Program-made: the position numbers and the translations under genes
Assembly (NCBI GenBank): GCA_023511615.1
Contig: JAIMBL010000020.1
Coordinates: forward strand, 1 to 37,053
Direction: 5' to 3'
Length of the DNA stretch: 37,053 nt
Origin: Leptolyngbyaceae cyanobacterium HOT.MB2.61
GTDB taxonomy: Bacteria > Cyanobacteriota > Cyanobacteriia > Leptolyngbyales > Leptolyngbyaceae
Shown: positions 3,593 to 30,972 of the stretch, in pieces
Numbering within the stretch: the stretch's first letter is position 1
How the letters are laid out: every line of letters begins with the position of its first letter
The notes under the pieces: model-generated
Database searches by the model: none
The model's input: only the letters and a program-made list of their open reading frames with translations
What the model was told of the DNA's origin: nothing

Positions 3593-3772
3593 GCATCACC
3601 CCTCTCTAACAGCCAACAACTAACAACTAAAAAATTGCTTCACTTTGGCATTCCTGAGCTAACGTGTATGCGAGATATGAACTACCTGTAAAAGAGGTTG
3701 CCAGACAGGAGTTTGACAGCGTTCTGGTCAGTCTCGTGGTTTTTGCTGGCTTAGTTGGTGTTAGAGGAAGGA

Positions 3773-5635: not shown

Positions 5636-5754
5636 TCAGTAGGCAGACATAATTAATTTGGAAGCAAGGGGAGTGGAGGCGTTGCCCCCAGGCAGGGGGT
5701 TTCACCCCCTCCACGCCCAAAACCATCTTTAATTTAATTGCACCCAGTTACTTA
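5636..5754 (+). repeat. palindromic MITE-like repeat, family 2, copy 1
   Basis: The element starts TCAGTAGGCAGACATAATTA and ends AATTGCACCCAGTTACTTA. The ends are imperfect inverted repeats of about 23 bases. The GC-rich core contains the hairpin AGGGGGTTTCACCCCCT. A second nearly identical copy lies at 30856-30972, and a left-end fragment at 36959-36976. No coding capacity. It lies between the NodB gene and the PPC gene. Confidence 0.8.
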
Positions 5755-11929: not shown

Positions 11930-13378
11930 TTAGCCTTCCATTCCCTGGCCCCTGCCTCCTGACTCCCGACTTCTGCCTGTTGCCTGCAGGAAAGCGACAC
12001 ATTCCACATGGGCGGTCTGGGGGAAAAAGTCGGCGGGCTGGACTTGCTGAAGGATGTATTGATTGGATTGGGTCAACAGTTTGAGGTCGCGGGCGAGGGT
12101 GGCAGGGTTGCAACTGACGTAGACGATGCGATCGGGTTGTATGGTTTGAAGTGCGGTGATGACAGCTGGGTCACAACCTCTGCGGGGTGGGTCGAGCAAT
12201 ACAATATCAGGCTGAAGGCTCAACTGGGGCAGGGTTACTTCAACCGCGCCGATTTGAAAGTCAACGTTTTCAATCTGATTGAGGGTGGCATTGTGCCAGG
12301 CCTGCTCGATCGCCTCCGCCTGTCCCTCCAGCCCGATCGCCCGTTTCACCTGTTTCGCCAGTGGTAAGGTCAGCGCGCCAATGCCACAGTAGGCATCAAC
12401 CAGAACCTCATTTCCTTGTAGCTGTAGCCCATCTAGAATCAATTGTAATAGGGCTTCTACTTGTTCCGTGTTGACTTGAAAGAAGGTGTCGGGTCTGATT
12501 TGAAATTTCAAGTCGGCCAGTTCTTCTGTCAGAAAAGGTTGACCGGCAATGCAGTGGGTGTCTGCTCCAAAAATCGCGTTGGTGCGATCGGGGTTGATGT
12601 TCAACAATACCCCTACCAATCCAGGGTAGCGATGGAGCCAGGTTTCAGCCTGATTTTCCAGACCAGCCAGATTTCCATCTCTGGAAACCAGCGTCAGCAG
12701 GATTTCCCCTGTACGACGACCGATGCGCAGGCTTAAATGGCGCAGTTTGCTACGATGGTTTTTCTCGTCATAGATACCCCATCCCCGCTCCTGAATGTCC
12801 TGTTTCACTTCTGCCAGCAGGGGGTTGAGTCGTGGGTCTTGAATCGGGCATTGATTCAAATTCACAATCTGGTGGCTACCTTTCTGGTAGTAACCAGCCT
12901 GCACCTGGCCTGTTGGCGATCGCCGCAGCGGATAGGTTGCCTTATTGCGGTAACCCAGGGATTCCCCCGCTCCTAAAATGGGTTGAACTGGAGGATGGGC
13001 AAATCCACCAATTCGCTCCAGGGCTTGAACCACAATGTTTTGCTTGGCTACAAGTTGATGGGCATAGTCCACATGCTGCCACTGACAGCCACCACACTTA
13101 TCTGCCACAATGCAACGGGGCCGAATGCGATGGGGAGAAGGTTCCAGCAGTTCCTGGAGTTTGCCATAGGCATACTGGGGCTTGACCCGTAGCAACCGCA
13201 CCAGGGCGCGATCGCCCGTCACCGTATCCGGCACAAACACCACCCGCTCTCCAACACGCCCTACCCCATCGCCGCTGTCGCTCAGGTCAACAATTTCCGC
13301 TTCCACCAGTTGACCTTGCTGCCAGAGGGAGTCAGATTTTGGATGTTGAATTTCAGAATTGAGATTGGAACCAGTCAC
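11930..13378 (-). CDS. rlmD: 23S rRNA (uracil-5-)-methyltransferase, RlmD/RumA family
   Basis: SAM-dependent methylation of a uridine C5 in 23S rRNA. A TRAM domain (about 21-78) is followed by the 4Fe-4S site: Cys89, Cys95, Cys98 (CGGC) and Cys177. The Rossmann methyltransferase has DAYCGIGALTLPL, DPPRRGCDP and YVSCNPATLARDL, whose Cys is the catalytic nucleophile. Its GTG start overlaps the TAG stop of the pentapeptide gene by one base, so it is probably translated by coupling. The first ~18 residues (SNLNSEIQHPKSD) and last ~15 (SRESGGRGQG) are read from DNA resembling the nearby intergenic repeats, giving unusual ends. Bacterial TrmA/RlmC-type members are the alternative. Confidence 0.93.
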   Translation of the reverse strand: MTGSNLNSEIQHPKSDSLWQQGQLVEAEIVDLSDSGDGVGRVGERVVFVPDTVTGDRALVRLLRVKPQYAYGKLQELLEPSPHRIRPRCIVADKCGGCQWQHVDYAHQLVAKQNIVVQALERIGGFAHPPVQPILGAGESLGYRNKATYPLRRSPTGQVQAGYYQKGSHQIVNLNQCPIQDPRLNPLLAEVKQDIQERGWGIYDEKNHRSKLRHLSLRIGRRTGEILLTLVSRDGNLAGLENQAETWLHRYPGLVGVLLNINPDRTNAIFGADTHCIAGQPFLTEELADLKFQIRPDTFFQVNTEQVEALLQLILDGLQLQGNEVLVDAYCGIGALTLPLAKQVKRAIGLEGQAEAIEQAWHNATLNQIENVDFQIGAVEVTLPQLSLQPDIVLLDPPRRGCDPAVITALQTIQPDRIVYVSCNPATLARDLKLLTQSNQYILQQVQPADFFPQTAHVECVAFLQATGRSRESGGRGQGMEG

Positions 13379-13914: not shown

Positions 13915-14080
13915 AGCTAAGAACCTCATCCCGAGTTTCAAGTCTAACACCTGGAGACACAGCAAGGGTGAGGGGCGGGAAAAAGGAATCAGAAGTCCAC
14001 CAGCCTCATCCTGGTTGCCAATCCTCTTTCTCACAAGGGAGAATAAGTCTTATTGTGGTGTGTTGAGTGAGAATAGAAAT

Positions 14081-16222
14081 ATGCAACCGCAGGGTAAGGA
14101 TGCGGCATCCGATCTGGAAGCCGTGGAAAAACCATTGGATGGCGCTTTAGCAAAGCTGGATGAAGCGATCGCCAAAAGTCAGCGCTATCTCCTTTCCATT
14201 CAGAATCCAGAGGGTTACTGGTGGGCAGAGCTAGAATCAAATGTCACCATTACCGCCGAGGTAGTTCTGCTGCATAAAATTTGGGGAACCGACCGCACTC
14301 GCCCGCTGCATAAGGTTGAAAAGTACCTGCGGGTTCAGCAGCGAGACCACGGTGGCTGGGAACTTTTTTACGGAGATGGCGGGGAACTGAGTACCACCGT
14401 TGAAGCTTACATGGCACTGAGGTTGCTCGGCGTTCCAGCTTCTGACCCGGCTTTGCAAAAAGCGCGTCAATTCATTCTGAAGCAAGGTGGCATCAGCAAA
14501 ACGCGCATTTTTACCAAGATGCACCTGGCTTTAATTGGCTGTTATGACTGGCGGGGGCTACCCTCCATTCCCCCCTGGATCATGCTGTTCCCAGAAAACT
14601 TCCCCTTCACCATTTACGAAATGTCCAGTTGGGCGCGGGGCAGCACTGTACCGCTCCTGATTGTGTTTGACCAGAAGCCCGTTTACAACGTCGATCCAGC
14701 CATTAACCTGGATGAACTGTACACCGAAGGGCGCGAGAATGTGCGCTTTGAGGTACCCCGGCACGGTGATTGGACTGATATTTTTGTGACTCTGGATGAC
14801 CTGTTTAAATTGGCCGAAAACCTGAAATTGACCCCCTTCCGGGAAGAAGGGCTGAAAGCGGCAGAGAAATGGGTACTGGAGCGCCAGGAAGATACGGGAG
14901 ACTGGGGTGGGATTATCCCTGCGATGCTCAATTCCCTGCTGGCATTGCGATCGCTCGGTTACAACGTTGCCGATCCAATTGTGGAACGGGGACTGAAAGC
15001 GGTTGACAACTTCTGCCTGCAAACCGAAGACCAGTACTGGACCCAGCCCTGCATTTCACCCGTCTGGGATACCGCCCTCGTAATGCGATCGCTGGTGGAC
15101 TCTGGCTTAAACCCCGATCATCCCGCTCTTCAACGTGGCGGCAACTGGCTACTGGAGAAGCAAATCCTCGACTATGGCGATTGGGCTGTCAAAAATCGCA
15201 AAGGCAAGCCAGGAGCCTGGGCCTTTGAGTTCGACAACCGCTTCTACCCTGATGTCGATGACACCGCAGTCGTCGTGATGGCCCTCCATGCTGTTCGATT
15301 GGAAAATGAGGCATTAAAGCAGCAAGCGATCGCCCGTGCTGTTGACTGGATTGCCACCATGCAATGCAAACCCGGTGGCTGGGCCGCCTTTGATCTGGAC
15401 AATGATCAGGACTGGCTTAATCTCATTCCCTACGGCGATTTGAAAGCGATGATTGACCCCAACACTGCTGATGTGACGGCCAGAGTGCTGGAAATGGCAG
15501 GTAAGTTGGGAGGAATCAGGGGCCAGGCGTCAGGAGCCAGGGGCTGGGAACCAGGGTCTAACGGCCAGGAGTCAGGCTTTCACTCAGCACTCAGCACTCA
15601 GCACCCATCCACCCATCCACCTATCCACCCCCCTACCCCCTATCCCTCTCTAACAACTAACAACCCAAAATTAACAACTGCCCTTACTCCTGATGCAATC
15701 TCCCGCGCCCTCGCTTACCTCTGCCGTGAGCAGGAGCCGGAAGGTTGCTGGTTTGGCCGCTGGGGAGTGAATTACATCTACGGCACGAGTGGAGTTTTGT
15801 CAGCCCTTTCGTTAATTGCGCCCCAGTCTCACCGGAGGGAAATTGAACAGGGTGCGGCCTGGTTGGTTCGCTGTCAGAATCAGGATGGCGGTTGGGGAGA
15901 AACCTGCTTTAGCTACAATGATCCCAGATTGAAAGGGCAAGGCGACAGCACCGCATCCCAGACGGCCTGGGCGTTAATTGGACTGCTGGCAGCCGGGGAA
16001 GCAACGGGCACCTATGCAATGGAAGCGATCGAACGGGGTATTTGCTATCTCATCCAAACTCAGCGTTCAGATGGCACCTGGTATGAAGATTACTTCACAG
16101 GTACTGGATTTCCCTGCCACTTTTATCTACGCTACCATCTGTACTATCAACACTTCCCCCTGACGGCTCTGGGGCGTTACCGGAATGTGGCACAACGGAT
16201 GGCGGAATCTGGTTCTAATTAG
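14081..16222 (+). CDS. shc: squalene-hopene cyclase with a repeat-derived insertion
   Basis: Class II terpene cyclase that folds squalene into hopene (hopanoid synthesis) at the membrane surface. 713 residues from ATG 14081. It has the catalytic DVDD motif (391-394, within FDNRFYPDVDDTAV), MSSWARGSTVP, and several QW motifs (for example QQRDHGGWELF, RQEDTGDWGG, QNQDGGWGE, QRSDGTWYE). Both alpha-barrel domains are present and the C-terminus is complete. Family members are about 630-660 residues. The excess is a low-complexity stretch at about residues 477-535 (15508-15687), described separately. The gene is divergent from the pentapeptide gene and 34 bases before a small membrane protein gene. 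hpnB and the hpnG-like gene are 11 kb upstream. Confidence 0.95.
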   Translation: MQPQGKDAASDLEAVEKPLDGALAKLDEAIAKSQRYLLSIQNPEGYWWAELESNVTITAEVVLLHKIWGTDRTRPLHKVEKYLRVQQRDHGGWELFYGDGGELSTTVEAYMALRLLGVPASDPALQKARQFILKQGGISKTRIFTKMHLALIGCYDWRGLPSIPPWIMLFPENFPFTIYEMSSWARGSTVPLLIVFDQKPVYNVDPAINLDELYTEGRENVRFEVPRHGDWTDIFVTLDDLFKLAENLKLTPFREEGLKAAEKWVLERQEDTGDWGGIIPAMLNSLLALRSLGYNVADPIVERGLKAVDNFCLQTEDQYWTQPCISPVWDTALVMRSLVDSGLNPDHPALQRGGNWLLEKQILDYGDWAVKNRKGKPGAWAFEFDNRFYPDVDDTAVVVMALHAVRLENEALKQQAIARAVDWIATMQCKPGGWAAFDLDNDQDWLNLIPYGDLKAMIDPNTADVTARVLEMAGKLGGIRGQASGARGWEPGSNGQESGFHSALSTQHPSTHPPIHPPTPYPSLTTNNPKLTTALTPDAISRALAYLCREQEPEGCWFGRWGVNYIYGTSGVLSALSLIAPQSHRREIEQGAAWLVRCQNQDGGWGETCFSYNDPRLKGQGDSTASQTAWALIGLLAAGEATGTYAMEAIERGICYLIQTQRSDGTWYEDYFTGTGFPCHFYLRYHLYYQHFPLTALGRYRNVAQRMAESGSN
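15508..15687 (+). repeat. in-frame, intergenic-type repeat DNA inside shc
   Basis: About 180 bases made of blocks otherwise seen only in spacers here: GGAGCCAGGGGCTGGGAACC, a triplet of CACTCAG(CA) units, CCATCCACC tandem units, then CCCTCTCTAACAACTAACAA. The last block matches the spacer at about 3600-3630, and the first resembles 25.7 kb. It stays in frame without a stop and adds about 60 residues (Gly/Arg/Ser, then Pro/His/Thr) between two cyclase blocks. Confidence 0.75.
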
Positions 16223-18201: not shown

Positions 18202-18323
18202 GGCTCTCCTGAGAGTTTGGTGATAAGCGTCGCTTATTACCAAAACAAAATCAATAGTCCAGGGATTTTGTTTTAGATAAGAAAGTAGCTTACGCTACTT
18301 TTTCACCGCCAAGCCAGGAGAAC
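18202..18323 (-). repeat. palindromic repeat, family 1, copy A
   Basis: Read on the minus strand: TTCTCCTGGCTTG, a hairpin (AAGTAGCGTAAGCTACTTT), TAAAACAAAATCCCTGGACT, then ATTGATTTTGTTTTGG, a second hairpin (ATAAGCGACGCTTAT with CCAAA flanks) and CTCTCAGGAGAGCC. Short inverted ends (TCTCCTG/CAGGAGA) bound it. Copies B (22305-22430) and C (29364-29573) have the same order of blocks. No coding capacity. Confidence 0.8.
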
Positions 18324-22304: not shown

Positions 22305-22430
22305 AGTTCTCCTGGCTTGCTGGTGCAAGAGTAGCGTAAGCTGCTCTTGCATCGATTAAAATAAAGTCCCTGGACTATTGATTTTGTTTTGGTGATAATC
22401 ACCGCTTATCACCAAACTCTCAGGAGAGCC
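22305..22430 (+). repeat. palindromic repeat, family 1, copy B
   Basis: AGTTCTCCTGGCTTGC, a hairpin (AAGAGTAGCGTAAGCTGCTCTT with one mismatch), AAAGTCCCTGGACTATTGAT, then GGTGATAATCACCGCTTATC with ACC as the second hairpin, and CTCTCAGGAGAGCC. It is uninterrupted and shows the target of the insertion seen in copy C. It lies in the divergent gap between the AEC and VanY genes, with a partial extra end (CTCTCCTGG) at about 22293. Confidence 0.8.
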
Positions 22431-25643: not shown

Positions 25644-25895
25644 GTTGATCGTTTTAGTGGAGGGTTAGGAGTAGGGAGAGGAGAAAGAAGAAGAAAGAAC
25701 AGAGAAACCAGGAGTCAGGAGAGGTTAGGGGCTGGGCAGCAGGAAGCAGGTGGCAGGAGGGTAAAAAGGGAAAGGGAGAAATCAGGAGCAGAAGTCATCG
25801 CTAATAGCCAACAGTTAGAAGTCACTCAAAACTCAGAATTAAAACCTGATCCATCTAACTGGTAACTCACAACTCACAACCAACAACCAACAACT
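25644..25895. repeat. low-complexity spacer of short degenerate repeats
   Basis: Purine-rich GGAGTAGGGAGAGGAG and AAGAAGAAAGAAC runs are followed by CCAGGAGTCAGGAG, GGGGCTGGGCAGCAGG and a terminal CAACCAACAACCAACAAC. These are the same blocks found in frame in shc. No gene. Confidence 0.6.
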
Positions 25896-29390: not shown

Positions 29391-29573
29391 CTTAGGCGAC
29401 TCTTTCACCTAAAACAAAGTCCCTGGAATATAGCAGTCCTAAATAATCTGTGAAAAGAAAGGGCTCTTTAAAAAGGGATTCCGCCGGAATCCCTTTTCAA
29501 AATCCAGATAGGATCGCTATATGATTTTGTTTTGGTGATAAGCGATGTTTATCACCAAACTCTTAGGAGAACC
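29364..29573 (+). repeat. palindromic repeat, family 1, copy C, interrupted
   Basis: TTCTTCTGGCTTGCC, hairpin GGTGAAAGAGTAGC/GACTCTTTCACC (29379-29410), then AAAGTCCCTGGA, the nested 89-bp element, and finally TGATTTTGTTTTGGTGATAA, second hairpin and CTCTTAGGAGAACC. Compared with copies A and B the order is identical except for the insertion. Its left part supplies the stop codon of the GPH symporter. Confidence 0.8.
29429..29521 (+). repeat. nested small element with TA duplication
   Basis: The 89-bp insert (29431-29519) begins TAGCAGTCCTA and ends TAGGATCGCTA, imperfect terminal inverted repeats, and is flanked by TA on both sides. Removing it with one TA gives GGAATATGATTTTG, close to GGACTATTGATTTTG of copies A and B. 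Inside is a 13-bp perfect stem AAAAGGGATTCCG/CGGAATCCCTTTT. TA target duplication is typical of IS630/Tc1-type MITEs. Confidence 0.75.
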
Positions 29574-30858: not shown

Positions 30859-30972
30859 GTAGGTAGACATAGTTAATTAGAAGAAAGGGGAGTAGGGGCG
30901 TTGCCCCCAAGCAGGGGGGTTCACCCCCTCCACCCCAAAACCATTTTTAATTTAATTGCACCCAGCTACTTA
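30856..30972 (+). repeat. palindromic MITE-like repeat, family 2, copy 2
   Basis: Starts TAAGTAGGTAGACATAGTTA and ends AATTGCACCCAGCTACTTA, which are imperfect inverted repeats. The core hairpin AGGGGGGTTCACCCCCT lies between two convergent genes and could act as a two-way terminator. Copy 1 is at 5636-5754. The leading TAA is the stop of the DUF39 gene. Confidence 0.8.

Follow-up and report, generated by a model that had tools for sequence, protein, structure and literature searches.

In-frame spacer-type heptad repeats in a variable loop of cyanobacterial squalene-hopene cyclase

The squalene-hopene cyclase gene (shc) of Leptolyngbyaceae cyanobacterium HOT.MB2.61 contains, in frame, a block of short repeats of the kind found in intergenic spacers, which raises the question of whether noncoding repeat DNA has been captured by a conserved enzyme and how an enzyme might accommodate it. 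We addressed this in a stretch of 37,053 nucleotides (the window; contig JAIMBL010000020.1, here C112) from a draft genome of 5.29 Mb in 383 contigs (G000), and in the genomes of related cyanobacteria.

The shc insert and its repeats

For shc an ATG was selected as the start, the same open reading frame (ORF) reaching upstream as far as a TTG at 14015. In the profile search the product scored 915.6 bits against TIGR01507, compared with a curated cutoff of 431.1; its DVDD motif at residues 391-394 is invariant, and the TIGR01507 and Pfam matches show the cyclase domain downstream of the insert to be intact. Score, motif and predicted full-length fold thus indicate a squalene-hopene cyclase (SHC). 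The ORF runs without a break across 15508-15687. In the alignment with SHC of A. acidocaldarius (1gsz), query residues 31-477 correspond to chain residues 16-460 and query residues 539-706 to chain residues 467-630; since the alignment blocks stop at 477/460 and resume at 539/467, about 60 query residues stand opposite only 6, and the insert falls at chain residues 460-467. The first-pass annotation, which had described about 60 extra residues interrupting shc with the frame kept and the catalytic DVDD and downstream part intact, is borne out on each of these points. The features concerned are as follows.

14081..16222, plus strand: shc, squalene-hopene cyclase, 713 aa including the insert (TIGR01507, 915.6 bits; Pfam SQHop_cyclase_N and SQHop_cyclase_C)
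15508..15687, plus strand: repeat-derived insert, residues ~477-537, between model helices 463-483 and 537-550 (gap relative to 1gsz; lag-7 z = 7.7; pLDDT 33-40 over 481-528)
15511..15581, plus strand: purine-rich heptads of the GGAGYCA / GGGGCCAGG type, forming the first half of a composite repeat that recurs in the G000 citramalate synthase gene (15511-15600 matches the insert there at 72%)
15582..15602, plus strand: three ACTCAGC units in tandem
15603..15629, plus strand: tandem units of the CCATCCA type, with similar arrays elsewhere in the genome
15644..15665, plus strand: CCCTCTCTAACAACTAACAACC block, a high-copy spacer repeat (window and genome repeat matches)
3600..3630, plus strand: spacer copy of the CCCTCTCTAACAACTAACAACC block (window repeat scans)
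25876..25895, unstranded: weaker spacer copy, ACAACCAACAACCAACAACT (16-mer scan)

The extra residues, about 55-60 in number, are built of 7-bp tandem repeats that follow one another in the order GGAGYCA-like, ACTCAGC, CCATCCA and CTAACAACTAACAAC, and period 7 is accordingly strong (lag-7 autocorrelation z = 7.7). Within the window, the 20-mer CCCTCTCTAACAACTAACAA of the insert has one other match, in the spacer at 3600 with 2 mismatches, and none in shuffled sequence. When 16-mers were scanned with at most 2 mismatches, the insert gave hits at 10 further sites of the window (7 in spacers), compared with 2-3 for control segments of shc. Across the G000 genome, another 46 scored partial matches to the insert region were recorded. 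Of the copies that the first-pass annotation had placed elsewhere in the window, the one near 3600 was thus recovered and a weaker one was found at 25876, while a copy at 21.2 kb was not found at the thresholds used. With its 7-bp periodicity and dispersed, chiefly intergenic copies, the insert belongs to the cyanobacterial heptad tandem repeats, and, being in frame, free of stops, situated in a conserved gene and different in close relatives, it counts as a protein-coding repeat insertion. An intein was considered and rejected on the basis of the size of the insert (~60 residues), the lack of a match to any intein family in the profile searches and the low pLDDT.

An AlphaFold2 model of the SHC with its insert reached a pTM of 0.88, and superposed on 1SQC with a TM score of 0.94 (normalised to the 1SQC chain), with pLDDT values of only 33-40 over insert residues 481-528. 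The model predicts that the cyclase fold is intact and that the insert forms a disordered loop, low pLDDT being evidence of disorder rather than proof. As to selection, dN/dS between G000 and the same-genus genome G001 was 0.033 upstream of the loop and 0.054 downstream; in three other pairs the upstream values were 0.03-0.07 and the downstream values 0.05-0.18, with the Phormidesmis priestleyi pair giving the maximum. The codons flanking the insert are under strong purifying selection.

The cyclase loop among relatives

G001, whose SHC is 90% identical over residues 1-477, carries a dissimilar linker of 24 residues at this position, compared with 64 in G000. The comparison with related SHCs that the first-pass annotation had proposed therefore shows the same insert to be absent from a genome of the same genus, and the conserved insert in all close relatives that would have pointed to an old functional loop was not seen. 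Most cyanobacteria have linkers of 9-20 residues, with 9 in Nostoc, Fischerella, Thermosynechococcus and many others. Relative to the Nostoc reference, 44 of 92 aligned rows have at least 3 extra residues in the loop and 22 have at least 10, with a maximum of 55, whereas the next-largest indel site reaches only 16: the loop is the indel hotspot of SHC. On an SHC tree built without the linker, the linker changed between long and short at least 8 times, a count that is approximate given the quick method used. From its position in the tree, G000 is placed among the Leptolyngbya-like cyanobacteria. Separately, shc does not read as a single uninterrupted frame in L092, from an Acaryochloridaceae MAG, or in G025 (L125, with a break near query residue 441); these are possibly pseudogenes or assembly errors.

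Most of the long inserts in Leptolyngbya-like cyanobacteria are 7-bp periodic, with repeat types that differ among genera. The linker has 56 residues encoded by GGCAGAG- and CCCTACA-type heptads in Lyngbya HA4199-MV5, 46 residues in Stenomitos rutilans (GGTCAGC, AAAACTC and CCCCACT types), 26 in Tildeniella (GGATAAA / TTTATCC), 51 in MAG.87 (with CCAAAATCCCCAAT units) and 41 in G006 (GGAGCCA, AAAACTC and CCCTCAT types). Period-7 repeats are absent from two long linkers (L064 and L066), which might have another origin, so long loops are not all repeat-derived. Linker DNA resembles the repeats of its own genome: that of G004 has 47 scored matches in G004 and 50 in G006, few in other genomes and none in G005 or G021, and the GGATAAA linker type is present in G032, G028 and G004 but absent from G000. 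For the window's own insert no clean empty site was found among the relatives, because the linker of the nearest genome, at 24 residues, is dissimilar and because dS approaches saturation.

An empty site is available in Phormidesmis priestleyi. In strain BC1401 the 61-residue linker corresponds to a single copy of a ~150-bp element with inverted repeats and the ends TAGACCTCCTGC...GCAGGAGGTCTA, which has 45 scored matching places in its own genome including shc, that is, at least 44 others; 17 of the 20 copies inspected outside shc have no covering ORF of at least 150 aa. The sister strain ULC007 has a linker of 10 residues and lacks the element. Its ends are TA-like, and no clear target-site duplication was seen beside the empty site of ULC007. 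With terminal inverted repeats and many dispersed copies, the BC1401 insert has the sequence hallmarks of a miniature inverted-repeat transposable element (MITE), and its identification as a mobile element is well supported.

That long loops recur in several lineages and extend across the whole Stenomitos-like clade could alternatively mean that selection maintains a functional loop: in these filamentous cyanobacteria it might, for instance, bind a membrane or a partner, and the repeats would have supplied raw material only. We consider this unlikely, since sister species differ in both the sequence and the length of the loop (64 versus 24, 61 versus 10 and 45 versus 15 residues), the repeat type changes while the remaining protein is conserved, and the Nostocales, which are rich in such repeats (PMC4692102), have exactly 9 residues here. 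It is also conceivable, though quite improbable, that the insert works at the nucleic-acid level, forming a hairpin in mRNA or DNA that tunes expression, and that the peptide is a by-product. A purine-then-pyrimidine layout is indeed common, and some linkers fold better than their shuffles (L034, z = -5.1; L033, -4.4; L065, -3.1). Every long linker was folded, however, and with the window's insert at -0.06 and L031 at +1.55 folding is not a shared property, so that a conserved RNA hairpin was rejected as the common feature. Judged by its heptad arrays and this same folding score against shuffles, the window's insert is not a palindromic element of the RPE or REP type (see below). In principle shc could also be phase-variable, switched reversibly in and out of frame by heptad number, given that 7 is not a multiple of 3 and one unit gained or lost shifts the frame. 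This is highly improbable for arrays that are short and imperfect, with runs of about three like units, and the long-linker genes recovered are all in frame across the loop, retrieval by protein match favoring intact genes.

Repeats in spacers and in other proteins

To what extent do such repeats keep to spacers? A strict period-7 detector found 11 arrays in 429 kb of G000, too few for counting, and counts of single 7-mers did not separate coding from spacer DNA; we therefore counted clusters of high-copy 12-mers (at least 6 copies, HIP1 excluded) in the same 429 kb. Of 97 clusters, 91 are intergenic, 3 lie at gene ends and 3 inside called genes, classes that are approximate because the genes were called in this analysis from codon-usage-scored ORFs. 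Cluster density is 59 bp per kb of noncoding DNA and 0.44 bp per kb of coding DNA. The shc insert is one of the three gene-internal clusters; another (C46) is probably upstream of the true start of a permease. In spacer repeats an open frame is rare (21 of 546 frames over 167-bp stretches), and coding copies would therefore be a filtered subset. The earlier view that the blocks otherwise occur only in spacers thus holds for the great majority of clusters, but a few other G000 genes carry such DNA in frame.

The window holds further repeats of its own. A dispersed spacer element with the palindrome TTTGGTGATAAGC...GCTTATCACCAAA, present at 18202-18323, 22306-22430 and 29522-29573, has the look of a miniature element in its own right; its 12-mers occur 11-15 times in the 429 kb. 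A dispersed element of ~95 bp, GGGGGCGTTGCCCCCA...CACCCCCTCCACCC...TTTAATTTAATTGCACCCAG, has two spacer copies (5658-5754 and 30877-30972) that are 82-95% alike, and its 12-mers are high-copy. On the minus strand, the C terminus of the ORF at 11930-13378 (...ATGRSRESGGRGQGMEG) enters GGAGTCA-type repeats, common to the shc insert, at 11930-11975, as though a spacer repeat had run over its stop codon.

Among the other proteins, the citramalate synthase of G000 (TIGR00977) has an insert of 51 residues immediately before its GIHTHND motif, in a loop that ranges from 2 to 69 residues among relatives. The TIGR03960 radical-SAM protein of G000 (L163, 1035-4073 of contig C266) has three separate repeat-derived inserts, and that of a same-genus relative has different inserts at all three places; the three loops vary among relatives, the longer ones containing repeat-type peptides. 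Further in-frame cases in G000 include LarC, PriA and EgtB, together with a short patch in UvrA, where a large insert was rejected, the site among relatives being a repeat-derived patch of 7-9 residues. The citramalate synthase insert matches the SHC insert at 72% over 90 bp, and its matches to other places in G000 reach 82% over ~100 bp. Inserts of different genes within one genome share 8-mers at a mean of 0.057, compared with 0.025 for different sites in different genomes (genome-label permutation, P = 0.0005). Linker lengths of SHC and citramalate synthase were correlated (Spearman 0.59) over 19 genomes, which are not independent of one another.

These distributions also bear on an assembly error placing a spacer repeat inside shc, which G000, as a draft of 383 contigs, might be thought to invite, repeats being the usual cause of mis-joins. 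The first-pass annotation had named such an error as grounds for discarding its reading. It is hardly credible, because the insert lies mid-contig and in frame, with purifying selection on both flanks, and many other assemblies show similar inserts in the SHC loop, including that of G006 in 3 contigs; inserts in CimA and the TIGR03960 protein are found in the single-contig G001 as well. The idea that a spacer repeat is translated in frame here and tolerated at the protein surface as a loop is thus supported by the repeat content, the contrast with G001, the flanking purifying selection and the predicted fold. The larger point, which goes beyond that idea, is that capture recurs at one SHC loop with different repeats per lineage, and that other genes are affected too.

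A proposed origin and its known counterparts

We consider it likely that spacer repeats are recurrently captured in a permissive loop of SHC and then turn over rapidly in frame. DNA of heptad repeats and miniature elements would copy and expand through spacers and also land inside shc, where the survivors would be those insertions that are stop-free, in frame and within the one permissive loop between two barrel helices (A. acidocaldarius 460-467). Translation would turn them into a disordered linker at the protein surface, with the fold and the active site left undisturbed. The arrays would then change quickly under frame constraint, as units are gained and lost and as other repeats of the same genome take their place, so that the site would hold a different repeat type in each lineage; other conserved proteins would undergo the same process in loops of theirs. 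We infer the disorder in the cell, the retained SHC activity, the near-neutrality of the insert and the mode of copying, for which, in the case of heptad arrays, slippage, recombination and RNA-mediated copying are all candidates. Heptad arrays could instead have been generated by slippage on the spot, with no copied DNA arriving.

More tentatively, and with somewhat less than even confidence, we suggest that coding loops of unrelated housekeeping proteins share an ongoing copying process with the spacer repeats, amounting to a continuous noncoding-to-coding supply of disordered linkers to perhaps tens of proteins per genome. The proteins of one genome would then share repeat-derived peptides, GARSQEP-like in G000 and EGRGQKAEG-like in G004 and G006, which would be rewritten as the dominant repeat of the genome changes. 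The SHC loop amounts to an experiment that nature has repeated many times on the conversion of noncoding DNA into protein, with one loop, many lineages, different repeats and one empty site. It makes testable both the tolerance of a cyclase barrel for disordered foreign sequence and a spacer-repeat copying process that reaches genes. It is also a warning for annotation, as a length difference in a cyanobacterial enzyme is in some cases a captured repeat rather than a domain.

Several known systems share parts of this pattern. Rickettsia palindromic elements (RPEs) lie inside protein-coding genes (Ogata et al. 2000, reviewed in PMC2229807) and are likewise dispersed, mostly intergenic repeats found in frame in conserved enzymes and apparently tolerated; they are palindromic and 105-146 bp long, whereas here we find mostly 7-bp tandem arrays, in cyanobacterial hosts, at one loop, in many lineages and with different repeats. 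REPs of the GTAG and CGTC kinds occur within ORFs of several bacteria, with different REPs at about the same recB site in two Xanthomonas species (PMC3733652). They share with the SHC loop the presence of repeats inside ORFs and of different repeats at about one site, but they are another class of repeat, and recurrence at the SHC loop involves a minimum of 8 changes on the tree as well as several repeat types and a mobile element. The BC1401 insert resembles MITEs in its ~150-bp length, terminal inverted repeats, many near-identical dispersed copies and empty site in a sister strain, and differs in lying in frame within shc. In cyanobacteria, GGGGA(T/C)T heptad repeats are known from Nostoc spacers (PMC4692102), and in the P6b stem of the trnL intron one heptad motif has repeatedly been replaced by another (PMC4476775). 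Genome-wide 7-bp arrays and replacement of repeat type at one site in related strains are thus common to both, but those repeats are noncoding or part of a structured RNA, whereas here they are translated in conserved enzymes. A literature search, incomplete in its coverage, turned up no account of heptad arrays being translated in conserved enzymes of cyanobacteria, nor of one loop capturing repeats again and again across many genera, which is weak evidence of absence. In-frame capture of dispersed repeats is already known from RPEs and REPs, and what appears to be new is the translation of cyanobacterial heptads at one loop in many genera.
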